In this document: piece by piece, positions 18,273 through 38,681 of the stretch
Numbering within the stretch: position 1 is the stretch's first letter
Layout of the letters: each line of letters opens with the position of its first letter
From: an uncultured Granulosicoccus sp.
GTDB taxonomy: Bacteria > Pseudomonadota > Gammaproteobacteria > Granulosicoccales > Granulosicoccaceae
DNA: 64,000 nucleotides
Assembly (NCBI GenBank): GCA_937924505.1
Contig: CALDSR010000045.1
Span: 1-64,000, forward strand
Reading direction: 5' to 3'
Notes under the pieces: model-generated
The model's database searches: none
What the model saw: the letters and a program-made list of their open reading frames with translations, nothing else
Told to the model about the DNA's origin: nothing
Program-made: the position numbers and the translations under genes

Positions 18273-19130
18273 GTGGAGCGATTGATCCCAGTCATGGTTC
18301 GAACCTTCGGGCGTACTGGTTCGACTCTTTTGATGCAGATTCTAGGTTCTCATCAGAACGTGTGTTTCGAACGAAGGTACCCTTTCGAAACTCGCTATCT
18401 CACTTACGTCTACAACATGTCTCGCTTGCTGACCTTGAAGGGGAAGGCCGACGAGCCGTGGGATAACGATGTGTTGTTCCGCGGCGAGCAACGTATGATG
18501 GGTTGTCTTCCATACGGTGATTTGAAATCACTTGATCGCAATCGTTTGTCGAAACGCGCCTTGATGTCGTTGTGGGAGACCTTCTCTGCCGAGATGAGAG
18601 AGTCTGCCGGAATAGGTAGTGGCGAGAAAGCGTTTTACGCTGAAAAGGTGCCGCCTTATGTGGCAGAAACTGTTAACGACACGATGCCAGCCAAAAATAT
18701 CTTCCTGCTACGTGATCCACGTGATGAAATGGTATCGATCAAGAGCTTTAATCACAAGCGAGGTTACAAGTCCTTTGGTTGGCTCGAAACCGATACAGAT
18801 GTCAGCTATGCACAGAGGATATGTCGTAATCGACAGAATTTCATGCAATTTATGCTCGATTTCAAAACCGACAACCGACGACTGTTCGTGCGTTATGAAG
18901 ACCTGATCAGAAATGGCGATGAAGAGGTTGGGCGTATTTCCGAGTGGCTGGGCTTGCCTTTGTCTCTAAAGAAAATCGAGAAGGAAAAAAAGATTCGTGA
19001 AGTCCACATGACGAGCAGAGATCCGTCTGCGTCGGTTGAACGTTGGCGGCATGAGCTTAGCGATGAAGTGCTGGATATCTTCAAGAACAACCTGGGAAAT
19101 GAACTTACCGGGTTGGGTTACGCTGTCTGA
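18273..19130 (+). CDS. PAPS-dependent sulfotransferase
   Basis: Predicted cytoplasmic sulfotransferase that moves a sulfate from PAPS to an acceptor, here probably a sugar of the capsule. The N-terminal TFGRTGSTLLMQIL is the 5'-phosphosulfate-binding loop, and FLLRDPRDEMVSIKSF is the 3'-phosphate-binding segment with its Arg and Ser. The length, 285 residues, is usual for the family. Start is GTG 18273 with AGAGGT a few bases upstream. It follows a 145-base gap after the export operon and precedes a GT2 gene by 2 bases, so it probably heads a second transcription unit. Confidence 0.88.
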   Translation: MERLIPVMVRTFGRTGSTLLMQILGSHQNVCFERRYPFETRYLTYVYNMSRLLTLKGKADEPWDNDVLFRGEQRMMGCLPYGDLKSLDRNRLSKRALMSLWETFSAEMRESAGIGSGEKAFYAEKVPPYVAETVNDTMPAKNIFLLRDPRDEMVSIKSFNHKRGYKSFGWLETDTDVSYAQRICRNRQNFMQFMLDFKTDNRRLFVRYEDLIRNGDEEVGRISEWLGLPLSLKKIEKEKKIREVHMTSRDPSASVERWRHELSDEVLDIFKNNLGNELTGLGYAV

Positions 19131-19132
19131 GC

Positions 19133-20572
19133 ATGAAAAAGTTACGGAAAAAAATATTTCAGTATGCCAAACGGCACATCAGTGAGTCGCGTGTTAGAGC
19201 CATGGCTCTGAAGATCAAAAAACTGTGCTACCAAGCGAAGCCGCGCCCCACCATCACCATTGTTCAAGTGATCATCCTGGATGACAACAGTCTATACCTG
19301 CAAGGAGAGATTGTTGATCTTCGTCATCTGATTCAATCGATCGAACTGGTCTTTGCTGGTGGTAATAGCCTACGCATTGACGAGTCAATCCGATATCTTC
19401 GTGATGAATCAACGCCGCATCGTCGCTTATTGGTACAGCTTGGTCTGTCATCCAGTTTTGTAGCTCGCATCAAACTTGATGATGTGGTGGCTAGCGCGAA
19501 TGAAGCGACCAGCCTGCGATTTACATTAAAAAGAGGTGGTACTCAATCGATCTCTCTGAAATTGGATACAGCTTCCGATGCGCCGTTGGAACACGTCAAG
19601 CGTGTCCTTGCGACGGTGCCAGGGAATTCGCCAGAGAAGCGAAATCTCTTTGACAAGATTTACGGTCCTGTCTTGCAACAGATTTGGGCGACCCGAGGTA
19701 TGCAACGTCCGGGGGTTGAAGACCTGCGGTTTAACGATGAATTGGCGTCTGCAATGCCTGTTGTGACATTGGTCATACCGATCTACGGGCGGTACGATTT
19801 TATCGAACACCAGCTTAGTGTTTTCGTTAATGACGACACCATGAAAAGGCATGAAATTCTCTACGTTATCGATGACCCTCGCATCATCAATGAAATAAAA
19901 AGTAGTTGTGAGGCTCTTTCGCGAATATATCCAATCGCTTTTAGAGTGTTGTGTCTAGAGCGCAACATGGGGTACGCCGGTGCCAACAACGTCGGTGTTG
20001 AGTATGCGAAAGGACGTTCAATCTTATTGATGAATTCTGACGTTATGCCATCCGAAAATGGGTGGCTGGACAAGATGCTTGATACGGTCGGTGATTCTCT
20101 GGACACGAGCATTACCGGTGCACGACTTGTCTATGAAGATCGCACCGTGCAACACGATGGAATGTGTTTCTATGCGTCTCCATTTGTCAATAATCTCTGG
20201 ACCAATATTCATCCGGGCAAAGGTCTGCCGTTGGATCTGTTCGATGATGAGGACCCTTTGGTGTCGCGGGAAGCGGTCACAGGTGCGTGTCTTTTGATCA
20301 CGCGAGAGAATTATCTCGGTGCGGGGGGCTTCAATGAAAATTACATACTTGGTGATTACGAAGACTCTGATCTGTGTATGCGTGGCCGACAGCTCGGTCT
20401 CGAAATTCAGCTGGCCAGCCGCATTGTCCTGTTTCATCTCGAGCGTCAATCGCAGTCGCTGATGACTGCAGATCGCTGGAAAGAAGAGCTGACCTATTTC
20501 AACTGTTGGCAGCATTTTCATACCTGGAATGAAGATATCCAGGACATGAAGAGAACCGGTACAGATGGCTGA
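19133..20572 (+). CDS. Family 2 glycosyltransferase with N-terminal extension
   Basis: Predicted GT-A fold transferase of 479 residues. The first 200 residues have basic and then beta-rich character and match nothing I recognise. The catalytic part begins near residue 210 with VVTLVIPIYGRYDFIEHQL, continues with RNMGYAGANNVGVEYAKG and the metal-binding LLMNSDVMP (in place of DxD), and ends with GDYEDSDLCMRGRQLGLEI and a following HLE motif. It lies between the sulfotransferase (2 bases) and a GT4 gene, whose start overlaps its end by 8 bases. Donor and acceptor are unknown. Confidence 0.85.
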   Translation: MKKLRKKIFQYAKRHISESRVRAMALKIKKLCYQAKPRPTITIVQVIILDDNSLYLQGEIVDLRHLIQSIELVFAGGNSLRIDESIRYLRDESTPHRRLLVQLGLSSSFVARIKLDDVVASANEATSLRFTLKRGGTQSISLKLDTASDAPLEHVKRVLATVPGNSPEKRNLFDKIYGPVLQQIWATRGMQRPGVEDLRFNDELASAMPVVTLVIPIYGRYDFIEHQLSVFVNDDTMKRHEILYVIDDPRIINEIKSSCEALSRIYPIAFRVLCLERNMGYAGANNVGVEYAKGRSILLMNSDVMPSENGWLDKMLDTVGDSLDTSITGARLVYEDRTVQHDGMCFYASPFVNNLWTNIHPGKGLPLDLFDDEDPLVSREAVTGACLLITRENYLGAGGFNENYILGDYEDSDLCMRGRQLGLEIQLASRIVLFHLERQSQSLMTADRWKEELTYFNCWQHFHTWNEDIQDMKRTGTDG

Positions 20573-21878
20573 TAAAACCAAAATATTGATGGTCTCGCAC
20601 GGTCATCCAGATCATTCTGTGGGTGGTGGCGAGATCGCCGCATACAATCTGCACAATGCTTTAAATATCAGGGATGGTTTTGAGTCCGTATTCTTTGCCC
20701 GGCACGGTAAACCGGAACTTATCCATGGTGGCACTCCCTTTGCCGGAACAGGTCGGCCGGGTGAAGTGCTGTTCTACGCAACGATGCCTGACTGGTTTCG
20801 ATTCTCGCAACCGGACAAGGCGGCGGTGTGGCGCGACTTTCGCGAGATGCTACGGGTTCACCGGCCGGATATTGTACATTTTCATCACTATTTTCAGCTT
20901 GGGTTGGAGCTCTTTCGTGAAGTCAGGAATTTCGACCCCACTATCAAGATCGTTTTGACCTTGCACGAATACATGGCCATCTGTAATAACGAAGGCCAGA
21001 TGATCAAACCGGATACAGGTGCTTTATGCTATGAATCATCGCCATCCGAATGTGCCCGTTGTTTCAAGAAACGGAATCCTCAGGATTTCTTTTTGCGAGA
21101 GCAATTCATCAAGTCGCACTTTGAAGTGGTTGATCAATTCATCGCGCCAAGCGAATTTTTGAAACAACGTTATGTTCAATGGGGAATTGCCGCAAGTCGC
21201 ATCAAAGTAGTTGAGAATCTGTTACCGGGTTCGGACGAATCCCGAGATCGCCCTCCGGCGATGACTGACAAGGTGCGCCTGGCGTACTTTGGTCAGATCA
21301 ATCGTTTCAAAGGGCTGGATCTTTTGATCAAAGCGATGCTTCAGTTGCCTCCAGAGGTTCAAAGAAGGGTTCAACTTGATATCAATGGCTCAGGGCTTGA
21401 GCATCAGACTACCAATTTCCAGAAAATTGTGAATAGCGGCTTGAAACAACTCGGTGATTCGGCACGTTTGCGTGGGCGGTATACGCCACGTGAATTAGGT
21501 CGATTACTGGCCGGGACTGACTGGATGATCGTACCATCACAGTGGTGGGAGAATTCCCCCGTCGTCATCATGGAGGCAAAACGTCATGGTGTGCCCGTCA
21601 TTTGTAGTGATATCGGTGGCATGGCTGAAAAGGTAGAGCATGGTCGAACCGGTCGTCATTTTCTCGCATGTCGTGAAAATGCGTTAGCCGACGCCATTAC
21701 CTGGGCGGTGGATAACAGGGATCAGCAACCTGATTATGCCAAGGCTATTGCAGCTGACTTTCCTGGTGATGCACCACTTGATGCGCATATTAATCTGTAT
21801 GAATCTTTGCAATCTGTTGTCGCTACGAGTTCCGCAATGTCAAACGACAAGGTAGAACCCTTGCGCGTAGCCTCTTGA
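20565..21878 (+). CDS. Family 4 glycosyltransferase
   Basis: GT-B fold retaining glycosyltransferase of 437 residues. The N-terminal domain has MVSHGHPDHSVGGGE (a glycine-rich acceptor loop), VLTLHEYMAIC and a small Cys pair segment (YESSPSECARCFKK). The C-terminal donor domain carries LAYFGQINRFKGLDLLIKA and the EX7E-type motif VVIMEAKRHGVPVICSDIGG. The start overlaps the end of the GT2 gene by 8 bases, pointing to translational coupling. It is one of the enzymes likely to build the capsule repeat unit; sugar specificity cannot be read. Confidence 0.88.
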   Translation: MADKTKILMVSHGHPDHSVGGGEIAAYNLHNALNIRDGFESVFFARHGKPELIHGGTPFAGTGRPGEVLFYATMPDWFRFSQPDKAAVWRDFREMLRVHRPDIVHFHHYFQLGLELFREVRNFDPTIKIVLTLHEYMAICNNEGQMIKPDTGALCYESSPSECARCFKKRNPQDFFLREQFIKSHFEVVDQFIAPSEFLKQRYVQWGIAASRIKVVENLLPGSDESRDRPPAMTDKVRLAYFGQINRFKGLDLLIKAMLQLPPEVQRRVQLDINGSGLEHQTTNFQKIVNSGLKQLGDSARLRGRYTPRELGRLLAGTDWMIVPSQWWENSPVVIMEAKRHGVPVICSDIGGMAEKVEHGRTGRHFLACRENALADAITWAVDNRDQQPDYAKAIAADFPGDAPLDAHINLYESLQSVVATSSAMSNDKVEPLRVAS

Positions 21879-21891
21879 TCGGACATGTGAC

Positions 21892-22860
21892 GTGATTGCC
21901 TATCACATACTTTGCCATGACAACTTCGCTCAGGTAGCCCGTCTGATCGAAGCCTTGTACAGTCCGGACGATGTTTTTCTCATAGATATCGATAACGGAA
22001 AGCATACGGATACCAAAGCGATAGACAGATTCGTATCCGAGCTGTCGCGAAAGCAGAATGTCCATATTGTTCGCGATGCCAATATCGGTTGGGGGGCAGG
22101 TGGCACCTTGCGAAAAACCATCAAGGGCGCTTTCCGGCTGTTACGTTTAGATGAAAAGTGGCAATACTATATTGTTTTGAGTGGGCAGGATTTGCCACTG
22201 AAAAGTAACGCAACGATAAAAGCTGAATTGGCGCCAGGTGCGGCGCGAGAGACAAACTATTTGCGCTACGGCGCCACAGAGGTTCTCGATCCGAATGACA
22301 TCCCCTTGATCAGCAAAAGCAAACGTATTGCGCTTTGGGGTGATCGAGGACATACCAAGGTTTATGCAAAGCCGGGTGCGATCAATCCACAAATCAATCA
22401 TGGTGCGCGATGGCTGGTGGATGTCACGGAAGTCGGTGAACAAGGTGAGGTGTACATTGGCTGTTGTGACGAACTGCTGCTCGAGAGACGTCGCACCTTC
22501 TTCGAACGGTATCCTTTCTTCGAAGGACCAAACTGGTTCAATTTGCATCGCTCGTTGCTCGAATTCATGATAGATGATCCTTTTACTTATGAACTCTACG
22601 ATGTACTGCGCAGCACCTTTATTCCCGATGAAAGCTTTTTCCAGACCTACATCATGAACACACGGTTCCGCGATACGGTCAACTGGAATTATGGCCGGCT
22701 CATTTTGCGCCCCGGACCAAAACCCCGGGTCAAGGTGTTTACGGAAGAGGATTGGCCGGAAATCAGCGAATGTGCCGAGTTGTTCGGAAGAAAATTTGAT
22801 ACCCGCCAGTCGCCGGCGATTGTCGATCAGGTGCTTGAACATATTCGAGCCGCAGCGTAA
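21892..22860 (+). CDS. GT14-like glycosyltransferase (core-2 / xylosyltransferase family), copy 1
   Basis: Predicted glycosyltransferase of 322 residues related to the family of animal core-2/I-branching GlcNAc transferases and protein xylosyltransferases. It opens with IAYHILCHDNFAQVARLI, then VFLIDID, has NIGWGAGGTLRKTIKGAF, the characteristic YYIVLSGQDLPLKS, and EGPNWFNLHRSLLEFM with the late FIPDESFFQT. Start is GTG 21892, 13 bases after the GT4 stop. A close paralogue lies at 37734-38681. A UDP-xylose synthase gene follows 332 bases later, so UDP-xylose is an attractive donor, which is inference. Confidence 0.82.
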   Translation: MIAYHILCHDNFAQVARLIEALYSPDDVFLIDIDNGKHTDTKAIDRFVSELSRKQNVHIVRDANIGWGAGGTLRKTIKGAFRLLRLDEKWQYYIVLSGQDLPLKSNATIKAELAPGAARETNYLRYGATEVLDPNDIPLISKSKRIALWGDRGHTKVYAKPGAINPQINHGARWLVDVTEVGEQGEVYIGCCDELLLERRRTFFERYPFFEGPNWFNLHRSLLEFMIDDPFTYELYDVLRSTFIPDESFFQTYIMNTRFRDTVNWNYGRLILRPGPKPRVKVFTEEDWPEISECAELFGRKFDTRQSPAIVDQVLEHIRAAA

Positions 22861-23192: not shown

Positions 23193-24200
23193 ATGAATGA
23201 CATAGCTTCATCAATGGGTATCAGAAAACGCGTTCTGGTCACAGGAGGAGCCGGTTTTCTAGGCTCGCATCTGTGTGAGCGACTTCTGAATGAGGGGAAT
23301 GAAGTCATCTGCATGGATAACTACTTCACCGGTTCGAAACAGAACATACAACACTTGATGGACAACACATCCTTCGAGCTGATGCGTCACGATGTGACAT
23401 TTCCGGTTTATCTGGAAATTGACGAAATCTACAATCTTGCCTGCCCGGCGTCGCCGATTCATTATCAACACGACCCGGTTCAGACGACCAAGACCAGTGT
23501 GCACGGTGCGATAAACATGCTTGGACTGGCCAAGCGAACCGGAGCCAAGATTTTTCAGGCGTCGACCAGCGAAGTATACGGCGACCCAAAAGTGCATCCG
23601 CAGCACGAGAGCTACTGGGGTCATGTTAACCCGATTGGTTTTCGCTCTTGCTACGACGAAGGCAAACGCTGTGCGGAGACACTGTTCTTCGACTACCGCC
23701 GTCAGCACGATCTTCGTATCAAGGTTGGTCGTATTTTCAATACGTACGGCCCTCGCATGCATCCTAATGATGGGCGTGTTGTATCCAACTTCATTGTTCA
23801 AGCACTGACCGGTCAACCGATAACCATTTACGGTGAAGGCGATCAGACGCGATCGTTCTGCTACTGCCTTGATCTTATCGAAGCCTTTGTACGGTTGATG
23901 AACACCGATGATTCTTTCACGGGTCCTGTCAACATTGGCAACCCGAGTGAATTCACAATCAAGCAATTGGCCGAGAAGGTTATTGAAATGACCAACTCCT
24001 CGTCAGAGCTGGTATACAAAGAGCTGCCAAGTGATGATCCGACACAACGTCGTCCGGATATCACACTTGCCAAGGAAACGATGGGTTGGGAGCCGAAGGT
24101 CGCTCTGGATGAAGGACTCAAGAAAACAATCGAATATTTTGACGGCCTGCTGTCAGATGAATCGGCAACCGTCAGCCAGATGGCTGTTCGCGCTTCTTGA
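23193..24200 (+). CDS. uxs: UDP-glucuronate decarboxylase (UDP-xylose synthase)
   Basis: Short-chain dehydrogenase that converts UDP-glucuronic acid to UDP-xylose. The 335-residue protein has the NAD motif [33 protein letters not shown], the STSEVYGDP segment and the UXS-specific RSCYDEGKR in which Tyr and Lys are catalytic. [20 protein letters not shown] is also typical of UXS. Upstream is a GT14-like gene, downstream rmlA (29 bases). No UDP-glucose dehydrogenase to supply UDP-glucuronate is in this window. Confidence 0.93.
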
Positions 24201-24229: not shown

Positions 24230-25129
24230 GTGAAAGGTATCATTCTCGCAGGTGGATCGGGTACGCGACTGCACCCGATCACCCAAGTCGTATCAAAGCA
24301 GCTGCTGCCGGTATATGACAAGCCAATGGTGTATTACCCATTGACGACGTTGATGCTTGCGGGAATTCGCGACATACTGCTTATCTCGACACCGCGTGAT
24401 GTTCCGTTGTTCGAACAATTACTCGGCGATGGTAGCCAATGGGGTATCAACCTCAGCTACACGGTCCAACCATCTCCCGATGGGCTTGCTCAGTCGTTTC
24501 TGCTTGGCGAGGATTTCATCGCAGATGACAATGTGGCCTTGATTCTGGGTGACAATATTTTTTACGGTCATGATCTGGCCGGTCTTCTGGGTAATGCCTC
24601 ACGCCAAGAGAGTGGGGCAACTGTTTTCGCTTATCGCGTTAGTGATCCCGAACGCTATGGTGTTGTCAGCTTCGATGAATATGGACATGCCCTGGATATC
24701 GAAGAGAAGCCAGTAAAGCCTGCATCGAATTATGCGGTAACCGGTCTGTATTTTTATGACAATGATGTTGTATCGATTGCCAAGGACATCAAGCCATCAG
24801 CGCGTGGTGAACTGGAGATTACCGATGTCAACAAGCACTATCTCGAACGTAATCGCTTGATGGTCGAAACCATGAGTCGCGGATTTGCGTGGCTGGACAC
24901 GGGAACAGGCGACTCATTGCTTGAAGCTGGGCAATTTGTCGAAACACTGGAACGCAGGCAGGGGCTCAAAATCGCCTGTCCTGAGGAAGTATCCTGGCGT
25001 GAAGGGTGGATCAGTGATGATCAATTGCTGTCGTTGAGTGAACCTTTGTCCAAGAATGCCTATGGGCAATATCTGAAATCTTTGGTTCACGACCAATGTG
25101 GGCGAAGGACGCTGCGCCTCGCCAGTTAG
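24230..25129 (+). CDS. rmlA: Glucose-1-phosphate thymidylyltransferase
   Basis: First enzyme of dTDP-L-rhamnose synthesis: glucose-1-phosphate plus dTTP gives dTDP-glucose. The 299-residue protein has the nucleotidyltransferase signature [40 protein letters not shown] and the [15 protein letters not shown] motif. Start is GTG 24230. The other three pathway genes (rmlC, rmlD, rmlB) lie together at 59.8-62.3 kb, so the pathway is split. The stop codon overlaps that of the convergent GT29-like gene by 4 bases. Confidence 0.94.
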
Positions 25130-26205
25130 CTCCACCTTCGGTACAACATAGCCTCTCGAGACCAATTATGGCGATCAGATCGCGCTGCATCATCGCGATA
25201 GTGATTTGCGGTTTTATCTTTTGATGTTCCGTCCGCTGTGTTGAGTTCTTCCAGGCGGCTGAAGCCATAGGTTGTCATCGCATTTGCACCCACACCAGCC
25301 TGACGCAAGGCATCAATCATCAACAAGCCTGCACTGGGTGGAGCGGATAACTCCTTGACCAGAAAATGCCATCGGTGCAGATCAAATGTGGCTATATGGG
25401 TGACCGCTTGCATGGCGACTTGTGTCCAATAGCGTGAAGCCCGTGTCCAGGGATCTGGCCCAGTAACCGCGCATTGGTTTGCCGCGACGCGGACGGTATC
25501 GAAATTCAAGCCGGGGGACACAACCCACAGGGCTGTCTTGCTGCCGATGTCTGGGTCGCCTTCTGGGTCGACTTCTGGGCCGACTTCTGGGTCGATGTCA
25601 CCAGTAAGCTCGGCGAGTACGCCGGTATTGTTGAATCGAATGACTATATCGTGGGCATCGATGTCGGCGCCTGCGGCTTTACTTTCGAGTGAGGGCCCAT
25701 TGCCGACGAGGGCCACTCGTTTTGCCGAATCTTGTATTCCGAGTTCTTCCAGGAGCTCCCCGATAGTGACACATCGGACCAGTAGTCCACGCGCCTGGCC
25801 TGCGTACTTGAATAGCTTTCGATTCAGTAGTGGGTGGTGATGCTGATTGAGATAATCCAGAACGCGTGGGAATTTTGTTAGTGCTCGGCGCTGGCGGAAG
25901 CCTAGATTGGTACCGACATACTGCTCAAGACGTGCTTGCAGTCGATCAGTTCGATTCGCGGCGATATCAAAGGAGCACAAGCGAAAGAACAGTGGCCAAC
26001 TTGTCAATCGACGATCCTTGATCAGATCGTCGACTTGTTCTATGCGTGATTCGTCGACACCCTCGATACAGTGACTTGCGTCCAGAGCCAGTTTCAGATT
26101 GGCGGCACTTGGCTGCTGCTCGGCTATCGACCATAGTTGCGCGCAAAGCGAATCATGCCAATCGCCATTACGAAACGCGGCCTTGAGTATCGGGTTCACG
26201 CTCAT
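25126..26205 (-). CDS. GT29 (sialyltransferase)-like glycosyltransferase
   Basis: A 359-residue protein whose second half shows the sialylmotifs of family GT29, best known from animals. Motif [17 protein letters not shown], then [14 protein letters not shown] (residues 164-196), resuming with DIGSKTALW (219-227). Motif [13 protein letters not shown] to TTYGFS (289-316). Motif III is HY at 335-336, and a His/Glu pair follows (H346, E351). A run of four-residue repeats (204-219) splits motif L and is encoded by 12-bp tandem repeats. The N-terminal 150 residues are unassigned. Its ATG overlaps the stop of the upstream gene by 4 bases. Donor could be a CMP-sugar (sialic acid or Kdo); this is inference. 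Confidence 0.75.
25546..25593. repeat. 12-bp in-frame tandem repeat inside the GT29-like gene
   Basis: Four consecutive 12-base units of the type GACTTCTGGGTC, differing at a few positions, encode the residues [12 protein letters not shown] and DPDI on the reverse strand. The array keeps frame, and it sits between the two halves of sialylmotif L, where a loop would be expected. Confidence 0.85.
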
Positions 26206-27404
26206 GACGATGAGCGTTTGTTTTTGAACGGGCGCAGTAAGGGGGACTGACTGTCGTTGACAAAGCGGCCAGGGGATTCACGAAATTTATTGAACTTGCG
26301 CTGCCCCTGATCTAGCGAACGGCCTAAGCGAGTGACCAGCTCTGCTCGTCGATCGGCATCAATGCCTGGAGTGAGAATGGTGCTGAATGTTCGGGTTTGA
26401 TGGGCGTTGTAAGGTCTGAGATTATTCGATGCGTCGTCAGATTCATTCGCCGTCAACCACTGTTGTAAAACATAGTGCAACTCGCTGTGGTACCTGATGC
26501 GTGTCTGGCCATGTAGTGGGGCGTTTGCAAACTGTATATCTGCCAGGGACCGCAATAGTTTTCCCGTTGCATCGTTTCTATCTGTTGCCTCCTTTCTCTG
26601 CGTTGCATCGTTCCGCCATGCAATACACGGTACGCCTGCAAGTAATGCGTCAGCGCTGAGTGCGTCGCTTGCCTGTAGTGCAAGGGTTGTGTTACCAAGC
26701 AAGGCGTGATAGTCGGAGAGTCGATCAATCAGAATTGTGTGTGCATGCCATCTGCCAGTGAGGTTTATCGCGGCGCATGCCTGTTTGGCTGCAGCGGAAT
26801 GTTCTGTATCAAGATATGTCAATATTATCTGACTATTTCCCCGATTCAATGGGGGGTTGCTACCACCTTTCATTGAGTCCAGCGTGGTCAGAATTGCCGC
26901 GATGTCTTTCTCATCCGGAGGGCTGTTCAGTTGTACATTGATTCGATGTGTTGCGCGATAAAGATCGTCGGGCCAGCTTGCCGGTAATGGATTGAATCGC
27001 GAATGAAACAGTGCAACAGGCTCGATCTCGCTGTCGCGATCCTCGCTTTCAGGGTTGTCAATGTCATCCAGACGGGGGTTGACGCCTTGTACGCCCACCG
27101 AAATTTCAGACTGTGAGTGAGGGTGAACCGGATACAGCACCAGATCCGACGGCGCTTTGTCTGCTTTGTCTACTGTGTCGACTCGCCTGCGAATCGTCAG
27201 CGCATTTGGCAAAGACTCCGGCCCAAATACATCTGGATTAAATAGATGCTCGATTTCTATCAACTCGGCATTGTGCCGTCCAACCGTCTGTAGTAACGCG
27301 CGCACAGAGGCTTCGAGCTCGTTCAGCTGATCAGGTAACCTCTGTGTGATCGCGTGACTCACGTGCTTGTCACGCTGCGCTGGCATAGCTCTGCCAGAAT
27401 TCAT
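26202..27404 (-). CDS. Unknown protein of the capsule island (possible GT-B-like fold)
   Basis: I do not recognise this 400-residue protein with certainty. ATG 27404 has GGAG five bases upstream and is preferred; the open frame continues to 27467. Near the N-terminus is a short coiled-coil-like part (LNELEASVRALLQTVGRHN), then VLYPVHPHSQSEISVGVQG, LFHSRFNPLPASWPDDLYR and, in the second half, LALQASDALSADALLAGVPCIAW. The last recalls the donor-side (S/E)-A-L-x-x-G-V-P segment of GT-B glycosyltransferases and Kps-type proteins. It overlaps the upstream GT4-like gene by 35 bases and the GT29-like gene by 4, so the three reverse genes form one coupled operon. A six-residue repeat (RNDATQ, RKEATD, RNDATG) is present. 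Confidence 0.65.
   Translation of the reverse strand: MNSGRAMPAQRDKHVSHAITQRLPDQLNELEASVRALLQTVGRHNAELIEIEHLFNPDVFGPESLPNALTIRRRVDTVDKADKAPSDLVLYPVHPHSQSEISVGVQGVNPRLDDIDNPESEDRDSEIEPVALFHSRFNPLPASWPDDLYRATHRINVQLNSPPDEKDIAAILTTLDSMKGGSNPPLNRGNSQIILTYLDTEHSAAAKQACAAINLTGRWHAHTILIDRLSDYHALLGNTTLALQASDALSADALLAGVPCIAWRNDATQRKEATDRNDATGKLLRSLADIQFANAPLHGQTRIRYHSELHYVLQQWLTANESDDASNNLRPYNAHQTRTFSTILTPGIDADRRAELVTRLGRSLDQGQRKFNKFRESPGRFVNDSQSPLLRPFKNKRSSS
26566..26619. repeat. 18-bp in-frame tandem repeat
   Basis: Three 18-base units beginning GTTGCATCG or GTTGCCTCC follow one another and encode a six-residue repeat on the reverse strand, in the unknown protein next to the repeat-bearing GT29-like gene. 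Confidence 0.65.
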
Positions 27405-28642: not shown

Positions 28643-30723
28643 AATCCAGTACAGCGCCACACAGCGAAGCAGGCACTCATGCGATCGCCACATCGTCCGG
28701 TATTCGGGCTATTGTGCATCTGCCGAGCTTTCTCGGTGTCGATTCGGTTGTCTCACCTGCAGCTGCGGACGCACGAAATCTTGCGATTTCGATGGTTGTC
28801 GTGTGGGGACGAAAAGAGAGCGCCGAACCGGCTCTCGCTTTGGCGTCTGAACGAGACTTGCCAGTCGTCTACATCGAGGATGGTTGGGTACGTACCGCAT
28901 CTGCCAATGCGCACTCACGGCGCGTTTATTCATTATTGATCGACCACGAAGGCGTGTATTACGACAGCACCGTACCCTCTGAACTTGAAAGTCTGTTGAA
29001 TCTGCCTGATGCGCAATTTGCCACCCATTGTGGCGCTGAGGAACTCAAGGAAGCACGTGATTGCCGAGCACTCCTGGTCAACAACAGTATTACCAAATAT
29101 AATTTTTGCCAACGTGCCGCCGATAACGATGTAAAACGGGATGCACGGGACTTGGTCCTTGTCATCGATCAAACTCTCGATGATGCATCACTTGCCTATG
29201 GCGATATGTCTGCGCCCGGGTTCGAAAAAATGCTCGATACCGCTATTGCGGAGAATCCACATTCGCGCATTGTCGTTCGCACGCATCCAGATGTCGTGTC
29301 AGGTCGCCGAGCGGGTTACCTCGGCAGCCTTGCCAGTGAACGCGGACTTGAGATCAGCGCGAAAGGTGATAATCCGATTGATTGGTTGAAGCACGCGACG
29401 AAAGTGTACGCCGGAACTTCGCAGATCGGCTATGAAGCGCTGCTCTGCGGTGCCGAAGTTCATGTGTTTGGAAAACCGTTCTATGCGGGTTGGGGCCTGA
29501 CGCATGATCGCCGGGAGATTCCGCGTCGCGTGCAAAAGCGCAGTATTGATGAACTTTTTTTCGCAGCCCACATGGCTATTGCGCACTATTGTCATCCAGT
29601 GACTGGTGATCACTGGACACTACGTGAGTGTCTTGCCCATGTTTGTCTGCAGCAACATGAGTTTGCACGAAATGCACAGGCTTTTGTCGGTGATGGCATT
29701 ACGCTGTGGAAGCGTCGTTACTTGCGTCAGTATCTGCGATCGCCTGCCGGGAGTTTGCGTTTCGCGAGTGGCGGTACACGATCCCCAGAGGAAACTGCGT
29801 TGACTTGGAGTTTTCGAGATCAGTCGGAAGGGTGTGAGCCTTTGAGTGGGAACGTATGTCGCATTGAGGATGGTTTCCTGCGTTCACGCGGACTGGGATC
29901 GGATTTCGTCGCGCCGGCATCGATCGTAGTCGATGGCAGCGGCTTGTATTTTGATCCATCAAATGCAAGTGATCTCGAAATCCTGCTACAGGAGCACGAC
30001 TGCACACCTGAAGAAATTTCCCGTGCAGCCCGCTTGCGTCGACAGATCCTGGCAGCGGGTGTCAGTAAATACAATGTGGGCCGAGATACCCGAAAACTCG
30101 AAGCCCCTGTCGAGAAGCCATTGTTGTTGGTGGTGGGGCAGGTCGCTGATGATGAATCCATACAGCGTGGTTCCCTGGATGTTGGCGGTAATCTCGCCTT
30201 GTGCGAAGCTGTGCGAAAAGATAACCCACATGCCCATATTGTATTCAAGCCGCATCCGGATGTTGTCAGTGGCAATCGAGTGGGTGCGATACCGGAAGAT
30301 GTCTTGTTCAGTGTTGTCGATGACATGGTTGTGGATATCAATATCATCGATTGCATCGAGCAATGTGATGAAGTCCATACGATTACATCCTTGTCCGGAT
30401 TCGAGGCATTGCTGCGCAACAAGACGGTCGTGACCTATGGTCTGCCTTTTTATGCCGGTTGGGGTTTGACTCGTGATCGACATGATCTGGCCCGCAGGAC
30501 GCGAGCAAGAACATTGGATGAGCTGATCTACCTCAGCCTGATTGCCTATCCCAAATATCTGGATATCGAAAGCGGTGAGTTCATAAGGCCGGAAGACTTG
30601 GTCAGCATGATGGCTCGCGAGACTCGCGTATCGGCCGGCAATGGTGCGACCGCCAGTCGTGCACCCCGTCTTTGGCGCAAGGCGCGAAATATCGTCAAGG
30701 CAATGCGTTACTCAGCCGCGTAA
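28639..30723 (+). CDS. kpsC: Capsule poly-Kdo linker transferase KpsC
   Basis: Builds the poly-Kdo linker on the lipid acceptor of group 2 capsules; KpsC proteins have two retaining beta-Kdo transferase modules. Both are visible: module 1 has VVYIEDGWVRT, VLVIDQTLDD, THPDVVSGRRAGYL and SQIGYEALLCG; module 2 has CRIEDGFLRSRGLGSDF, VVGQVADDESI, FKPHPDVVSGNRVG and TSLSGFEALL with FYAGWGL in each. From TTG 28639 the length is 694 residues, close to E. coli KpsC (675), and the homology begins a few residues after it (SSGIRAIVHLPSFL). Upstream in-frame starts (GTG 28591, TTG 28504) lack ribosome-binding sites; the true start is uncertain. The end overlaps the convergent GT2 gene by 16 bases. Confidence 0.92.
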   Translation: MKSSTAPHSEAGTHAIATSSGIRAIVHLPSFLGVDSVVSPAAADARNLAISMVVVWGRKESAEPALALASERDLPVVYIEDGWVRTASANAHSRRVYSLLIDHEGVYYDSTVPSELESLLNLPDAQFATHCGAEELKEARDCRALLVNNSITKYNFCQRAADNDVKRDARDLVLVIDQTLDDASLAYGDMSAPGFEKMLDTAIAENPHSRIVVRTHPDVVSGRRAGYLGSLASERGLEISAKGDNPIDWLKHATKVYAGTSQIGYEALLCGAEVHVFGKPFYAGWGLTHDRREIPRRVQKRSIDELFFAAHMAIAHYCHPVTGDHWTLRECLAHVCLQQHEFARNAQAFVGDGITLWKRRYLRQYLRSPAGSLRFASGGTRSPEETALTWSFRDQSEGCEPLSGNVCRIEDGFLRSRGLGSDFVAPASIVVDGSGLYFDPSNASDLEILLQEHDCTPEEISRAARLRRQILAAGVSKYNVGRDTRKLEAPVEKPLLLVVGQVADDESIQRGSLDVGGNLALCEAVRKDNPHAHIVFKPHPDVVSGNRVGAIPEDVLFSVVDDMVVDINIIDCIEQCDEVHTITSLSGFEALLRNKTVVTYGLPFYAGWGLTRDRHDLARRTRARTLDELIYLSLIAYPKYLDIESGEFIRPEDLVSMMARETRVSAGNGATASRAPRLWRKARNIVKAMRYSAA

Positions 30724-32603: not shown

Positions 32604-32829
32604 GTGATGCACTGCGACATTTTAATAGTATAGCGTGAAGCTCCTCACACGGACTGGCAATCGGTGAGGTTCAACGTCATTTTTCCGTTGTTTCGGCCGG
32701 TTCACTGATTGATCGAAAAATCAGAATGAAACGCTATACCGTCAACAAATTGGTTTTATAGCGGTGGCGTCGCGAAATATGTCAGGGCATCATTGGCAGC
32801 ATAATAAAAACTATAAATCAGGCCCCCGG
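32604..32829. promoter_or_regulatory. Divergent control region with paired CGCTATAC boxes
   Basis: On the reverse strand TATACT (32626-32631) and on the forward strand TATACC (32734-32739) each follow CGC, giving an inverted pair of CGCTATAC boxes facing the GT2 gene and the G8-domain gene. They could be the two -10 elements of divergent promoters. No good -35 hexamers are seen, so the call rests on the symmetry. Confidence 0.3.
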
Positions 32830-35259
32830 ATGTTTAGTTACCTTTCCCGAATAGTCTTCATTCTTTCATTTGTCTCTGTGCTGTCAGCCTGTGGTGGTGG
32901 CGGTGCGAACAATTTGGTCGGGACATCCGATATCCCCCTCAATGATGCGCCGGACACCAGTATGGCTAACGCTGATACTCGCGCAGCCACTCTCTGGTCC
33001 GATCCAGCGACCTGGGGTGGTGCTGTTCCGCAGGACAACACCGATATTCTGATACCTCGCGGCCAGACCATTATCCTTGACCGTGATGTGTCAGCTGCAA
33101 CCTTGACTATCAATGGCGCTCTCGTCTGTGACAATCGGGATCTGGCGTTGAGTGCTCGTTGGATCATGGTGCACGGCAATCTTGAATGTGGCACTGCTGA
33201 AAAACCTTTTATGAATCATCTTGACATCACCTTGACCGGTAATGACAAGAACGAGTCTGTTATGGGCATGGGGACCAAGACTATCGCTGCCATGGGTGGT
33301 GGCGTTATCTCGCTGCATGGACAGCCGCGTACCAGCTGGCTGATGCTCGACGGCACTGTCAATCCCGGTGCTCGAGAGATCCGCACCGAATACGCGACCA
33401 ACTGGCGCGCCGGAGACACCATTGTCGTGACGTCGACAGCTGACTCGATGCATGAGGCCGAAACACACATTATTCAGAGTATCGACGGTGATTTGATCCG
33501 GCTCAACCGGGCGCTGGAGCATCGCCACTTTGGTGAGATGCAGTCGTTCTCGAATGGACAACGCGACTGGGATGTCGATACACGGGCGGAAGTCGCATTG
33601 TTGTCTCGAAACATCAGAATTCAAGGCGATGAAGCATCTGAAGCTAATCGTTTTGGCGCGCACATGATGATCATGGAAGGTTCCATAGGCTTGATTTCCG
33701 GTGTTGAATTTCGTCGTGTGGGCCAAGAGGGTATTCTGGGTCGTTATCCATTTCACTGGCATATTGCCAATAATGTTCAGGGTCAGTACATTCGCAATTC
33801 GTCGATCGTCAGAAGCTACAACCGTTGCATAACGGTCCATGCTTCACATAATGCACTGGTTGAAGATAACGTCTGCATGGATCACGTCGGTCACGGTTTC
33901 TTTCTCGAAGACGGCGGTGAGACCGGTAATGTGTTCAATCGCAATCTTGGATTGCTTACGCGTCGACCGAGAGATCAAGTCGCCTTGATTCCCAGCGATA
34001 TTCAGGACGGTGAAGCAGCCCGAGGCCCTTCAACGTTCTGGATCTCTAACGGAGACAATACCTTTATCGGTAATGCTGCCGCGGGTTCTGATGGTCTTGG
34101 ATTCTGGTACGACACGGATGAAACGGTTTCCGGTTCTTCCGCGGGTCTTTTGCGTTATCGCAATGTGTCGCCGATGTTTTCAAAGTTCGGCGAATTTCGT
34201 GATAACCGAGTCCACTCATCCGATATGGCTTTCAGTACCTGCACGCTTGACAGCGGACCGGCCGGTTATTTGCCACCGGAACGCGCTCAGTTTCACAACC
34301 TGACGGTTTTTACCGGTGGTGATGGCGCTGTTTGGCCGTGCGAAGGTAAACAGATTTTTACCGAGCTCAAAGTCACTGATACGGGTCACGCTCACCATGC
34401 GGGATTTGTGGCGCCGCGACCGGTCACGGTCAGAGATTCTTTGTTCGTGGCCAATAGCAAGCTTTCAGAGGGCGGACGGGGCCGTCAACGTAGTGCAATA
34501 GGAATCTATGACTTTGGAGTTGACCTGCGCAATGTGCACTTTGCAAACTTCAATAACGAGTACGGCGGCAATTTCATGTTTGGCGCGCGGGATGCCGATG
34601 TTCGTATTACCAGTAATCCAATCTCAGGAGTAACTCTGGCGGATTCCTATCTCTACTATGATCGGCGCAATCAGGCAGAAGACATGCGTCCTTCTGCCTG
34701 GGGTGCAGTGATTCATGATGAAGATGGTAGTTTGGGCTTGGGTGCCGGGACCGCATTGGTGGCTGATCATCCTTTGATGACCGATTCAACCTGTACTGAT
34801 GTGTTTTCGACAGGGCGTTTGTGCGGCAACCGCTATGCACGGGTCAAGATGAATTTTGACGGACGTAGAAATTTGCCGCCCGTTAGACATTTGAGAAGTG
34901 ATGGGCGTGAGGCTATTGGTCGACCGTTGGCAGAACGAGCACACTATCAAAGTGTTGTTTCAGTCAATCACAATCGTTACCACTATGCCTATGAGTTTGA
35001 TGCTGGTGTTCTCAACACCGGATCAATGGACGCCAGCATCGAGTTTGCGCATGATAACGATACTGCGGTTCTTGAATTTCGCAACATGCCGCCAAATGTG
35101 ACAGTCAGAACGGTTGGTTTCAGCGATGCCGTTAGTATCAATGCACTCAAGCAAGGAGCAGGTCGCCAGTATGTACACGACGGTCAGTCCCTGTTTGTCA
35201 AGCTCAAGGCGTCTGGGGAGACCTGGGGTGCGAAAGACAAGGTTTCGTTGTCTTGGTAG
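32830..35259 (+). CDS. G8-domain beta-helix lipoprotein (CEMIP/TMEM2-like)
   Basis: Predicted lipoprotein of 809 residues. ATG 32830 gives a textbook signal (MFSYLSRIVFILSFVSVLSA) with lipidated Cys21 followed by a Gly run; in-frame starts at 32764 and 32779 would only lengthen the N-terminus. A G8 domain covers about residues 55-135 (LWSDPATWGGAVPQ, then ILIPRGQTIILDRDVS, LTINGALVCDN, WIMVHGNLECG). The rest has right-handed beta-helix character with segments such as YPFHWHIANNVQG, NRCITVHASHNALVEDNVC and GHGFFLEDGGETGNVFNRN, which match the part of CEMIP/TMEM2 and fibrocystin-like proteins behind the G8 domain. Animal relatives act on hyaluronan. Its 3' end overlaps the convergent sulfatase gene by 76 bases. 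Activity is inferred only. Confidence 0.82.
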   Translation: MFSYLSRIVFILSFVSVLSACGGGGANNLVGTSDIPLNDAPDTSMANADTRAATLWSDPATWGGAVPQDNTDILIPRGQTIILDRDVSAATLTINGALVCDNRDLALSARWIMVHGNLECGTAEKPFMNHLDITLTGNDKNESVMGMGTKTIAAMGGGVISLHGQPRTSWLMLDGTVNPGAREIRTEYATNWRAGDTIVVTSTADSMHEAETHIIQSIDGDLIRLNRALEHRHFGEMQSFSNGQRDWDVDTRAEVALLSRNIRIQGDEASEANRFGAHMMIMEGSIGLISGVEFRRVGQEGILGRYPFHWHIANNVQGQYIRNSSIVRSYNRCITVHASHNALVEDNVCMDHVGHGFFLEDGGETGNVFNRNLGLLTRRPRDQVALIPSDIQDGEAARGPSTFWISNGDNTFIGNAAAGSDGLGFWYDTDETVSGSSAGLLRYRNVSPMFSKFGEFRDNRVHSSDMAFSTCTLDSGPAGYLPPERAQFHNLTVFTGGDGAVWPCEGKQIFTELKVTDTGHAHHAGFVAPRPVTVRDSLFVANSKLSEGGRGRQRSAIGIYDFGVDLRNVHFANFNNEYGGNFMFGARDADVRITSNPISGVTLADSYLYYDRRNQAEDMRPSAWGAVIHDEDGSLGLGAGTALVADHPLMTDSTCTDVFSTGRLCGNRYARVKMNFDGRRNLPPVRHLRSDGREAIGRPLAERAHYQSVVSVNHNRYHYAYEFDAGVLNTGSMDASIEFAHDNDTAVLEFRNMPPNVTVRTVGFSDAVSINALKQGAGRQYVHDGQSLFVKLKASGETWGAKDKVSLSW

Positions 35260-37583
35260 GACCATTCATGGACAACATCTCCTGACAGTGTAGTCAATGA
35301 GATGTTTTCGATAACGAGACCCGAAGCTTCTGCTGGCACCACGAGGCGGAGGCTATCAATGTCATCAGCACTGTCGAGTAACATTTCCAGCGTATGAGAC
35401 TGACTATCTCCAAGCAGTGAATCTGATACAAGGTTAGTGTCCGAAAAACTTTCGTATTCTGAACGCCAGCGCGCCTCAAGCGTTGTATTTGTCGGGGCTC
35501 GATACTGTACGTGTAGCGTAGCGGGCTCGTTTAAATAGATATTGTCGGTCGTCAATACCATATCGGTGTTATCGTCAGCAGAACTGATATTGAGTTCGCC
35601 AGCGCCTTTTGTCATGATCGTTGAAGCATTTCCGTGCCAGCTGTCGATTTGTGAAAACCTTTGCGGTGCAGCACCAAGCAAACGATTTTCGAGTGGTAGG
35701 TAAATCGTATCTTCAGGCGCTTCCAGGCTAAGTGACAGGGCAAGCTCTCCCGTGTCGTCGAATTGCAGAATCACAAGCGTGTCGCTATTCAGCAACGGTG
35801 GATTTGGCGCGTTGAGTGGCAGCACGGTTCGATTACTCCAGACCTCCTGACCATTAACGTACATGGTGGAAGAAAAGAAATTGTTTCGACTCAGTATCTT
35901 GTTTGCGGTGAAATCTATAAAAGGGTCCCAGCCGCTCATACGTGACACCGGTATTGCAACGAGTACCGATTCGCCTTGTTCTGTCGTTGGATCATCCCGC
36001 AATGTGAACAGGTTGTCTTCACTGTCAGGATCACGGATTTCGTTGCGCCAGCCGAGCGCGGGATTGGGTGCCTGGAGCAAAAATTCATCAACTGTAAAGC
36101 TGGAGTAATAGCTACCCAAGGCCGCGGCGTCCTCGGTCGCGATCGGGTCCGACACCTGGATTGAACTGATCGGATAAGATTTCCTGGGTGTCCATCCATT
36201 TTCAGTGGTAATCGCCTTAAGACGCCGATGCATGTCGACGCGAACTTGCTCATAGCTTGGGTCCGCATAGACAGTGCGAGTTTCTTTCGGATCGTTGACC
36301 AGATCATATAGTTCGTAATGACCTTCAACTTCGAGCGATTTGATCAACTTGTACTCGTCGGTGCGTACGGCTGCCTGGGCTTTTTCGTACATTAGAAAAA
36401 GTTCCTGCCTCCATTGATTGTCAGTGGTATTTTCATTGAGTTTCCGCAAGCTCGAACCAGCCATGAACGAGGGTATCTCCGCATCGGCGAAATCGAGGAT
36501 GGTCGGAGCAATATCCAGCGTACTGACCAGCTCAGAAAAACGTTTTCCAGTGTCTTCGCTGCCAGGAAAATCGATAAGCATAGGGACTCGAATCGGTTCT
36601 TCATAAACAAAATGCTTTTCGGTCAATCCATGATCACCCAGGCTGTAACCATTGTCACTTGTGTAAATGAACAAGGTGTTGTTTTGCTTGGCGCGAAGAC
36701 TTGTGGCGTCGCGGATAGTTCCAATCGAATCATCAAGCCCGAGTATCGCTCGATAGTGGAATTTTATGTACTGACTCCAACTATTGTTAAAGCAGTTGAG
36801 GCCACAATGAAAATTATCCATTCCCAACCAATCCTTGATTGATTGCAGCTTGCCGCTGACAGAGAAGTCTTCGTTATAGGTATCGGGCTGAGGAATATCA
36901 ACTTCATCAAAGCTGTTTTTGTATCGCTCTGGATGTTCGAACTGCAGGTGTGGAGCTTTGAGACCGACCATCAAGAACAATGGTTTATCCGAACCGCGAT
37001 TTTCTGCGATAAATTTGCCTGCACGTTCAGCCAAAATGTCATCGACATAGCCAAAATGTTGTGTAGCTACGCCATTGACGTGTATCTGTGGATTGAAAAA
37101 ATTACCTAACCAGTCAAAGCTCTCCCAATGATCGAACCCTTTTTTAGGCTTTGATCCGTCGCCTAAGTGCCATTTGCCGATATAACCGGTTTTGTAACCG
37201 GCTTCTTGTAGAAATTCAGCAAACGTTTTTTGAGTTTCAAGAAAGGAATTGTTGCGCCAGGCGATTCTCGGTGCACTGGATTGATGGACATCTCGTCCAG
37301 TCAGTATCACACCGCGTGACGGAGAGCAAAGTGCCATTGGTACAAAGGCATTCTCCATCATGCTGCCTTCGGTCGCCAAAGCATCCATGGCGGGTGTGTT
37401 GAGAAATTCGTGTCCGCGTGCACTCTGCAGATCCCAGCGCATGTCATCTGCTACAACCAGAACGATGTCAGGCCGAGGATCCGGGTTAGCGGCAAGCGGT
37501 GGAAGGGTTTGTTGATCAGAACAGGCGCAGAGTAGAGCAAGACAACCGATCAGAAGTCCTGTCTTTCCTGGAAATGTTGCCAT
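35184..37583 (-). CDS. Sulfatase lipoprotein with long C-terminal extension
   Basis: Formylglycine-type sulfatase of 799 residues. The signal peptide ends in a lipobox with lipidated Cys21 (LALLCAC), so it is probably anchored in the outer membrane. The metal site VLVVADDMRWD lies near residue 42, the catalytic motif CSPSR at Cys86 with GVILTGRD after it, then GYIGKWHLGDG and IYTSDNGYSLGDHG. After about residue 480 come roughly 320 residues unlike the catalytic domain, with beta-rich character (YVNGQEVWSNRTV; LHVQYRAPTNTTLEARW), perhaps substrate-binding modules. Cys86 needs a formylglycine-generating enzyme, which is not in this window. Substrate unknown; it is in the same locus as a sulfotransferase. 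Confidence 0.9.
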   Translation of the reverse strand: MATFPGKTGLLIGCLALLCACSDQQTLPPLAANPDPRPDIVLVVADDMRWDLQSARGHEFLNTPAMDALATEGSMMENAFVPMALCSPSRGVILTGRDVHQSSAPRIAWRNNSFLETQKTFAEFLQEAGYKTGYIGKWHLGDGSKPKKGFDHWESFDWLGNFFNPQIHVNGVATQHFGYVDDILAERAGKFIAENRGSDKPLFLMVGLKAPHLQFEHPERYKNSFDEVDIPQPDTYNEDFSVSGKLQSIKDWLGMDNFHCGLNCFNNSWSQYIKFHYRAILGLDDSIGTIRDATSLRAKQNNTLFIYTSDNGYSLGDHGLTEKHFVYEEPIRVPMLIDFPGSEDTGKRFSELVSTLDIAPTILDFADAEIPSFMAGSSLRKLNENTTDNQWRQELFLMYEKAQAAVRTDEYKLIKSLEVEGHYELYDLVNDPKETRTVYADPSYEQVRVDMHRRLKAITTENGWTPRKSYPISSIQVSDPIATEDAAALGSYYSSFTVDEFLLQAPNPALGWRNEIRDPDSEDNLFTLRDDPTTEQGESVLVAIPVSRMSGWDPFIDFTANKILSRNNFFSSTMYVNGQEVWSNRTVLPLNAPNPPLLNSDTLVILQFDDTGELALSLSLEAPEDTIYLPLENRLLGAAPQRFSQIDSWHGNASTIMTKGAGELNISSADDNTDMVLTTDNIYLNEPATLHVQYRAPTNTTLEARWRSEYESFSDTNLVSDSLLGDSQSHTLEMLLDSADDIDSLRLVVPAEASGLVIENISLTTLSGDVVHEWSYQDNETLSFAPQVSPDALSLTNRD

Positions 37584-37733
37584 CACGATTTTTAGATCAA
37601 TAATGTATTTTCACAGACTGCGCAACTTGTATGCCATCAGTCGATGAAAATCCTTTTTTTTCCTGAGTCGTGTGGCGTTTTGGTGGCACGCTTTCTGTAT
37701 TTCCATGCATGGAAAAGTCAATGGACCCAACGC

Positions 37734-38681
37734 GTGATTGCCTATCACATTCTCTGCCACGACAACTTTCCCCAAGTGGCAAAACTGATTGATGCGCTTT
37801 ACAGCGCGGAAGATGTATTCCTGATCGATATCGATGATGGGGGCGCACCGAATACAACGGCCATTGAACGTTTTGTATCACGCGAAAATGTGCACATTTT
37901 GCGCGACAAGAATATCGGCTGGGGTGGTGCGGGTACTTTGCGCAAGACTATCAGAGGCGCTTTTTTCCTGCTTGATGCGGATAGGCGCTGGGATTATTAC
38001 GTCACCTTGAGCGGGCAGGATTTACCTTTGCAGTCGCCAGATGCCATCAAATCCACCCTCAGCGAAGGGTTGCGCGACAATATCAGTTATATCCGAGCTG
38101 TCGAACATAAGCCTGAACGACTCGAAGATCATAAAGTCTTCAATACCACTGAGAAGGTTCGTCAATGGGATGATCGGGGACACACAAAAATTTTTGGCAA
38201 ACCGGGCACTATTCATCCGAGAGACATGACCGCTGTCAGATGGTTGGTTGATGTCACCGAAGTCGGGGAAAAAGGAGAGGTTTATGTCGGAAGCTGCGAT
38301 CCCTTGTTACTGCGTCGTAGGCAGGATTTCTTTTCACGCCATGCGTTTCACCTTGGGGCCAACTGGTTCAATCTGAACCGTTCGATGCTGGAATACATGC
38401 GCGATGATCCATTTGCGTACGAGCTTTTTGATGTGGTCCGAACAACCTTCATCCCGGATGAATGCTACTTCCAGACCTATATTAAAAACTCACCCTTTCG
38501 CGACAAGACCAGCAAAGCTTATGGTCGACTGATTCTGCGTCCGGGGCCAATCCCGCGAGTGAAGGTTTTTGACATGGGAGACTGGCCAAAGATCGAGTCA
38601 TCGTCTGAGCTGTTCGGTCGAAAATTTGACGTCAATCACGACTCTGAAGTCGTTGAAGCAGTTTTGGCACGGGCCGCCTGA
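37734..38681 (+). CDS. GT14-like glycosyltransferase, copy 2
   Basis: Paralogue of the gene at 21892-22860, about 315 residues. Matching segments include IAYHILCHDNFPQVAKLI, NIGWGGAGTLRKTIRGAF, YYVTLSGQDLPLQS, WLVDVTEVGEKGEVY and LRPGPIPRVKVFD. GTG 37734 aligns exactly with the GTG start of copy 1 and is chosen; the frame also extends back to ATG 37644, which would add 30 residues. It is divergent from the sulfatase gene and lies 104 bases before kpsS. The two copies probably add similar sugars in different linkages. Confidence 0.8.
   Translation: MIAYHILCHDNFPQVAKLIDALYSAEDVFLIDIDDGGAPNTTAIERFVSRENVHILRDKNIGWGGAGTLRKTIRGAFFLLDADRRWDYYVTLSGQDLPLQSPDAIKSTLSEGLRDNISYIRAVEHKPERLEDHKVFNTTEKVRQWDDRGHTKIFGKPGTIHPRDMTAVRWLVDVTEVGEKGEVYVGSCDPLLLRRRQDFFSRHAFHLGANWFNLNRSMLEYMRDDPFAYELFDVVRTTFIPDECYFQTYIKNSPFRDKTSKAYGRLILRPGPIPRVKVFDMGDWPKIESSSELFGRKFDVNHDSEVVEAVLARAA

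Follow-up and report, generated by a model that had tools for sequence, protein, structure and literature searches.

The closest described counterparts of the system considered here are the sulfated capsules of Vibrio sp. KMM 8419 and Cobetia marina KMM 1449, which both bear sulfated rhamnose and are associated with KpsCS/KpsMTED (group 2/3-type) loci; these and all other published findings are cited from excerpts of their sources. The present system is a capsule island in contig CALDSR010000045.1 of an uncultured Granulosicoccus sp., where the window, that is, the whole stretch of DNA that was analyzed, comprises positions 1 to 64,000. The island shares with the loci of the two strains the genes for kps export and for priming with 3-deoxy-D-manno-oct-2-ulosonic acid (Kdo), a sulfotransferase, and rhamnose genes. 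Compared with what the excerpts describe for these strains, the window additionally has a UDP-xylose synthase (UXS), GT14 transferases, a GT29-fold transferase, a G8-domain lipoprotein, and a sulfatase, and neither a gene for the synthesis of 3'-phosphoadenosine-5'-phosphosulfate (PAPS) among the proteins scanned nor KpsM was found in it.

A GT29 enzyme also lies inside the kps locus of Escherichia coli K6, for which Kdo transfer was inferred by the authors of that work (PMC13171606). The K6 enzyme is a GT29-GT107 protein, whereas in the window GT29 stands as a protein of its own, close to KpsC and next to several further glycosyltransferases. The bacterial GT29 set of PMC5811610 (23 sequences, some marine) has the same sialylmotifs L, S, III, and VS; that paper, as far as its excerpts go, argues from sialylation, unlike the capsule and Kdo reading given here.

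The island is most likely the builder of a surface capsule that contains sulfate, xylose, and rhamnose and is anchored by Kdo. A sulfated, xylose-containing capsule exported by an ABC transporter, as claimed in an earlier reading made without database searches (the sequence-only reading), is well supported: the set of sulfotransferase, UXS, rmlA, GT29, GT4, GT2, kpsC, and kpsS recurs in related genomes, and a Trp and a Glu residue of the GT14 proteins are kept. The results define a specific type of capsule system that recurs among relatives of Granulosicoccus, a genus that in one study supplied the most abundant bacterial genome on blades of bull kelp (PMC9238374), and add gene-neighborhood evidence that places bacterial GT29 enzymes in Kdo-linked capsules rather than sialylation.

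Gene content of the island

As shown in Table 1, KpsC, KpsS, KpsE, KpsD, and a capsule ABC transporter ATPase are encoded in the window, which identifies an ABC-transporter (group 2/3-type) kps locus. Domain matches confirmed the families that the sequence-only reading had placed in this kps-type island, namely the sulfotransferase, UXS, two GT14 proteins, GT29, and the G8 and sulfatase lipoproteins. The Pfam scan of the window comprised 50 queries, one of them entered twice, and hence 49 distinct proteins, which cover a part of the open reading frames (ORFs); NCBIfam models were applied to subsets. This scope holds for all statements below on scanned window proteins.

For the UXS, the score to human UXS1 compares with 146.2 bits for the next other family in the PDB, which indicates a UDP-glucuronate decarboxylase over other short-chain dehydrogenases/reductases. 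The rmlA gene of the island and the rmlC-rmlD-rmlB genes at 59.8–62.3 kb together make the dTDP-L-rhamnose pathway complete. The flanks of the island, purK-kpsF and fumA-trpEGDC, also flank it in Granulosicoccus-type relatives.

Table 1. Positions, strands, and supporting evidence of the capsule-related genes in the window.
Position	Strand	Gene or product	Evidence
12261..13262	+	kpsF/kdsD-type arabinose-5-phosphate isomerase (Kdo precursor)	TIGR00393 342.8 bits, above cut-off; SIS+CBS
13292..13921	+	17-kDa-antigen/LysM lipoprotein-like gene adjoining kpsF	Pfam DUF5061+LysM
13962..14624	+	kpsT-type capsule ABC transporter ATPase	ABC_tran; name from position beside kpsE/kpsD
14627..15718	+	kpsE	TIGR01010 289 bits, below cut-off 437.5
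15718..17406	+	kpsD, outer-membrane export	Poly_export 60.8 bits
17411..18127	+	protein with C-terminal hydrophobic stretch	no Pfam match; homologues in relatives' capsule loci
18273..19130	+	PAPS-type sulfotransferase (SULT)	Sulfotransfer_3 59.1 bits; Sulfotransfer_1
19133..20572	+	GT2 glycosyltransferase	beside sulfotransferase in relatives too
20565..21878	+	GT4-type glycosyltransferase	domain match
21892..22860	+	GT14 (Branch) transferase a, predicted xylosyltransferase	Branch/GT14 75.2 bits; Trp/Glu kept
23193..24200	+	UDP-xylose synthase (UXS; UDP-glucuronate decarboxylase)	413.6 bits to human UXS1
24230..25129	+	rmlA, glucose-1-phosphate thymidylyltransferase	TIGR01207 501.6 bits, cut-off 360.65
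25126..26205	-	GT29-fold transferase, N-terminal helical domain; predicted CMP-Kdo transferase	PF00777 34.8 bits (cut-off 23)
26202..27467	-	protein of unassigned family between GT29 and GT4	no Pfam match; 7 non-self homologues
27370..28455	-	GT4-like transferase, near GT29/kpsC in relatives	domain match and relatives' loci
28504..30723	+	kpsC, dual Kdo transferase	Capsule_synth 273.5 bits
30708..32612	-	GT2 glycosyltransferase	domain match
32764..35259	+	G8 + CEMIP beta-helix lipoprotein, TMEM2/CEMIP relative	G8 94.8 bits; CEMIP_beta-hel 230.3 bits; lipobox LSAC
35184..37586	-	formylglycine-type sulfatase, candidate lipoprotein	Sulfatase 176 bits + SGSH_C; candidate lipobox LCAC
37644..38681	+	GT14 (Branch) transferase b, predicted xylosyltransferase	Branch/GT14 82.9 bits; best PDB match human XylT1 E 3.6e-8
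38786..40180	+	kpsS, first Kdo transferase	Capsule_synth 276.9 bits; NF050054 379.9 bits, below cut-off 600
59790..62298	+	rmlC-rmlD-rmlB	TIGR01221, TIGR01214, TIGR01181, all above cut-off

Recurrence in related genomes and the GT14 transferases

The relatives are 48 public genomes of the family of G001, the genome that carries locus L001, and co-occurrence was assessed by ten Fisher tests, uncorrected for phylogeny or for number. The recurring set consists of kpsE-kpsD and the homologue of the protein at 17411, the sulfotransferase, GT2, GT4, UXS, rmlA, GT29, GT4, GT2, kpsC, kpsS, and fumA-trp, where the order varies, some genes are absent, and contigs are broken. KpsC/S occurs in 41 relatives and the capsule-type sulfotransferase in seven. 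In a 10-taxon tree of fumA, trpE, and trpG, the sulfotransferase-bearing taxa do not form one clade (G004, G007, and G010 are not in the tree). The 17411 homologue adjoins kpsC in G002, G004, and G006.

GT14 was found in eight relatives, within the island in G001, G008, G025, and G046, and all seven genomes with the sulfotransferase also carry it (p 1e-7). The equivalents of Trp392 of human xylosyltransferase 1 (XylT1), which likely blocks larger sugars, and of its presumed base Glu529 are kept in both window proteins and across 11 distinct GT14 loci in all; the residues were mapped by counting along the alignment of GT14b to human XylT1, the sole reference for specificity. Both proteins are predicted on this basis to be XylT-like xylosyltransferases. 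They differ from human XylT1 in that its Asp494 is Asn in the window alignment and that the window protein is not long enough to hold the Xylo_C domain, and their acceptor is probably a glycan, unlike that of XylT1.

In G025, four short tblastn pieces of GT14 lie beside the sulfotransferase (L082:10830-11307), which suggests a decayed copy, and a longer match is kept at L074:14672-15616.

GT29-fold transferase and its donor

The best PDB match of the GT29 protein by sequence alone reached only E 0.073. Its structural model has a mean predicted local distance difference test (pLDDT) score of 80.1, and the nearest solved folds are sialyltransferases. The PF00777 match, sialylmotif-like L, S, III, and VS stretches (assigned by eye, with motif names from PMC5811610), and the GT29-like fold of the model together place the protein in CAZy family GT29. 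Relatives were found at 74–77% identity, and GT29 is present in 24 of the 48 genomes, lying 0.3–6.0 kb from kpsC in 21 and on different contigs in the other three. Residues 1–144 form a helical domain in the model, weakly resembling tetratricopeptide repeats (TPR), ahead of the catalytic domain, which recalls TPR-bearing capsule polymerases.

Two precedents connect this family with Kdo: the plant GT29 RCKT1 is needed for Kdo on rhamnogalacturonan II (PMC11288761), and the E. coli K6 GT29-GT107 protein is consistent with masses of a Kdo homopolymer (PMC13171606). NeuB-family synthases show no association with GT29, as they occur in nine of 24 genomes with it and in eight of 24 without it. Cells that bear KpsC and KpsS make CMP-Kdo. 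Because of this, the precedents, and the lack of association with NeuB, CMP-Kdo appears to be the likeliest donor. Since the GT29 family inverts and the donor would be CMP-beta-Kdo, the added Kdo is expected to be alpha. We conjecture that GT29 acts in the linker or transition region of the capsule; capsule transition transferases have been described, as has the need of a capsule polymerase for a TPR domain in linker elongation (PMC11666461).

G8 and sulfatase lipoproteins

The combination of a G8 domain with a CEMIP beta-helix places the G8 protein in the CEMIP/TMEM2 family, with E 8.8e-45 to TMEM2 (8c6i) and His and acidic residues in common. In contrast to CEMIP/TMEM2, it is a bacterial lipoprotein of about 800 residues, known here from its sequence, and its match to the N-terminal stretch of TMEM2 is weak (24.7 bits). 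A lipobox is present in 20 of 21 aligned G8 proteins, and its Cys at residue 43 in the window protein suggests that the true start lies further downstream. Within the CEMIP beta-helix, all 21 bacterial proteins agree with one another and with TMEM2 at 48 positions, which include H300, H331, H333, H359, H377, H484, E315, R354, D383, and E386 (window numbering). The spacings of 26 (H333–H359) and 24 (H359–D383) could fit stacked rungs of the beta-helix. The excerpted text of the paper on the TMEM2 structure (PMC10206443) leaves the active site without a confident assignment, and the bacterial relatives are offered for locating that of the CEMIP/TMEM2 hyaluronidases.

Relatives of the G8 protein were found at 78–92% identity, with Granulosicoccus ones at 61–63% and loci of Granulosicoccus/Granulosicoccaceae genomes at 71–75%. 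G8-CEMIP relatives amount to 38 loci across many unrelated bacteria, nine of them in Granulosicoccus-type records (L001–L009), and ten of the 48 relatives carry G8, eight of them of the CEMIP type. Three of 12 G8 matches (G006:C103, G021:C59, and G038:C48) were excluded, the other nine being L001–L009; these three are very long ORFs (1783–2153 aa) with a weak G8 match and apparently represent another type of G8 protein. In G001, G8 lies within the island, adjoining GT14b, without the sulfatase, and the remaining copies sit amid seemingly unrelated genes. No paper linking the G8 domain to a bacterial capsule turned up in literature searches, as far as the excerpts of the papers go.

Visual inspection of the translated sulfatase shows the motif CSPSRGVILTG, which conforms to C-x-P-x-R-x3-L-T-G, the consensus of formylglycine (S1-type) sulfatases, and together with the Sulfatase domain assigns the protein to this type. 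About 340 residues extend past the SGSH_C match, and the lipobox was checked in the window protein alone. The G8 and sulfatase genes converge, their ORF coordinates overlapping by 76 bases at the 3' ends, and they are convergent neighbors also in three of the nine Granulosicoccus-type G8 loci (L002, L004, and L006), where their contigs differ from those of kpsC and the stretch examined gave no match to capsule proteins of the window. The sulfatase orthologue occurs in six of the 48 relatives, in five of the seven with the sulfotransferase versus one of the 41 others (p 7e-5), a count in which some first-look candidates of G003, G011, G012, and G046 were left unscored. Since the sulfatase tracks the sulfotransferase, whereas G8 also occurs in three genomes without it, desulfation of the cell's own capsule is favored as a candidate role of the sulfatase.

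Of the two copies within a kps island, in the window and in G046, the latter (L079:3386-5209), between kpsT and kpsM, contains one in-frame TGA and is perhaps decaying.

Proposed pathway and alternative explanations

From the gene families, shared gene sets, motifs, GT29 model fold, and co-occurrence counts observed, we infer the substrates, the order of steps, the surface exposure, and the choice of the capsule over algal glycans as the target of G8 and the sulfatase. Within the cell, KpsS and KpsC would build the beta-Kdo linker on lipid, and GT29 would add further Kdo, expected to be alpha, in the linker/transition region or in the repeat. The GT4/GT2 enzymes and the two XylT-like GT14 enzymes would add xylose, rhamnose, and other sugars, and the chain would be sulfated by the sulfotransferase ahead of export. 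At the outer membrane, the two lipoproteins would act, most likely on the cell's own capsule: G8 would cleave it as a depolymerase or lyase of the beta-helix type, the sulfatase would remove sulfate, and the two may in this way trim and desulfate the capsule at the surface. The whole, a kps capsule with extra Kdo from GT29 and surface editing by G8 and the sulfatase, is the best explanation, although its chance of being right is put slightly below even. A more specific version, in which the capsule is a self-edited Kdo/rhamnose/xylose polymer, possibly with rhamnose on alpha-Kdo, that a CEMIP-type depolymerase and a sulfatase of the outer membrane remodel, and in which H331, H333, H359, H377, D383, and E386 form the CEMIP/TMEM2 active site, is considered unlikely; the rhamnose-on-alpha-Kdo motif is otherwise known from plant rhamnogalacturonan II.

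Several observations weigh against the best explanation. Neither a PAPS-synthesis gene nor a UDP-glucose-dehydrogenase gene was found among the scanned window proteins, and PAPS genes within the cluster are termed a hallmark in the excerpted literature on sulfated capsules. The sulfotransferase of G025 lies 58 kb from kpsC, GT14 is off-island on other contigs in G002, G004, G006, and G010, and all counts come from genomes that may be incomplete and have no completeness figures. G8 lies on another contig or more than 230 kb from kpsC in seven of the eight relatives having it, G003, G005, and G007 carry it without a capsule-type sulfotransferase, and it shows no association with KpsC/S (one-sided p 0.25); the sulfatase orthologue was not found in four of the eight G8 genomes (G003, G005, G007, and G008). 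The hyaluronidase activity of TMEM2 is disputed (PMC10206443 versus PMC10474455), and the nine GT29 genomes with NeuB leave room there for a nonulosonate donor. Of the trimming and desulfation at the surface proposed by the sequence-only reading, the lipoboxes and the tracking by the sulfatase stand, and the remoteness of G8 speaks against it; of the conserved co-location that it expected, the core set holds, with GT14 in the island in four relatives, and G8 is mostly elsewhere.

The remote G8 copies, those in the three genomes without the sulfotransferase, the wide spread of G8-CEMIP relatives, and the abundance of Granulosicoccus on bull kelp would instead suit a scavenging or niche role of both lipoproteins on sulfated algal (host) polysaccharides, their place in the island then being an accident of insertion and the capsule being as described above. 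On the other hand, the sulfatase tracks the capsule sulfotransferase (five of six) and sits twice in a kps island, and no support was found for a polysaccharide-utilization locus around G8: SusC/SusD, TonB receptors, and glycoside hydrolases were all missing from the 20 proteins, a part of the neighbors, that were scanned from L001–L004 and L006–L009 (two of them in the L001 kps island), with less than 2.2 kb of sequence upstream of G8 in L001 and L007. We regard this alternative as a real possibility, if not a probable one. With regard to GT29, the sialyltransferase folds nearest to its model and the nine genomes with NeuB would also suit a true sialyl- or other nonulosonosyl-transferase that decorates the capsule. 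In these nine genomes, however, NeuB lies on another contig or more than 3 Mb from GT29; the other 15 show no NeuB match (they may be incomplete), NeuB is equally common without GT29, no NeuB-type gene was found among the scanned window proteins, and the family has the two Kdo precedents (PMC11288761, PMC13171606). Such an activity is rather improbable, and the sialoglycan role once suggested for GT29 is not upheld. The glycosaminoglycan-like framing of the sequence-only reading would make the capsule a true mimic of alternating hexosamine and uronic acid, with an animal-like enzyme set for making and turnover. It draws on the animal relatives of GT14, UXS, the sulfotransferase, the sulfatase, and G8, which act on proteoglycans and hyaluronan, and on the solved sulfatases nearest to the window protein, which include N-acetylglucosamine-6-sulfatase and a mucin-desulfating sulfatase. 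Common families do not imply a common product, and a glycosaminoglycan capsule of the K4/K5/hyaluronan type was rejected because neither a hexosamine-supply gene, among the island ORFs or other scanned window proteins, nor the UDP-glucose dehydrogenase for UDP-glucuronate was found and rhamnose genes are present instead; this framing is very improbable.

Neighboring genes and further observations

The protein encoded at 26202..27467 has a C-terminal tail, KFRESPxRFVNDSQSPLLRPFKNKR, that is nearly invariant in eight aligned sequences (A3), the remainder being 40–66% identical; it could be a docking tail. Half of a GT-B domain is possible for this product, and its model from the eight-row alignment is poor (pLDDT 55.4), with Foldseek rows that are mostly GT-B-like enzymes at template modeling (TM) scores of 0.2–0.3 and were not relied on.

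PF00777, which is less sensitive than the GT29 profile built in this study (A2), matched six of 369 genomes of the class at E 1e-3, G001 among them. Four of the other five were inspected: kpsC is beside GT29 in one (G122, L088), GT29 is alone on a 3.8-kb contig in G164, and the GT29 stretches of G325 and G318 had no match to window proteins.

No NCBIfam model matched kpsC at 1e-10, and the top NCBIfam rows for KpsT were teichoic-acid, galactan, and Vi exporters, all below cut-off. Around 13262-13962, KpsF, KpsT, KpsE, and KpsD are encoded and KpsM is not in the window; tblastn with the KpsM of a relative as query (E up to 1) gave no match within the 64 kb. In the relatives, KpsM lies beside kpsT in L076 and L077, on the far side of the sulfatase in L079, and at a distance of about 6 kb in L075. 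Homologues of the protein at 13292..13921 (29–37% identity) adjoin kpsF in L075 and L076 and kpsM in L077, and counterparts of kpsT, 76–82% identical, are found beside kpsE in L075–L077 and L079.

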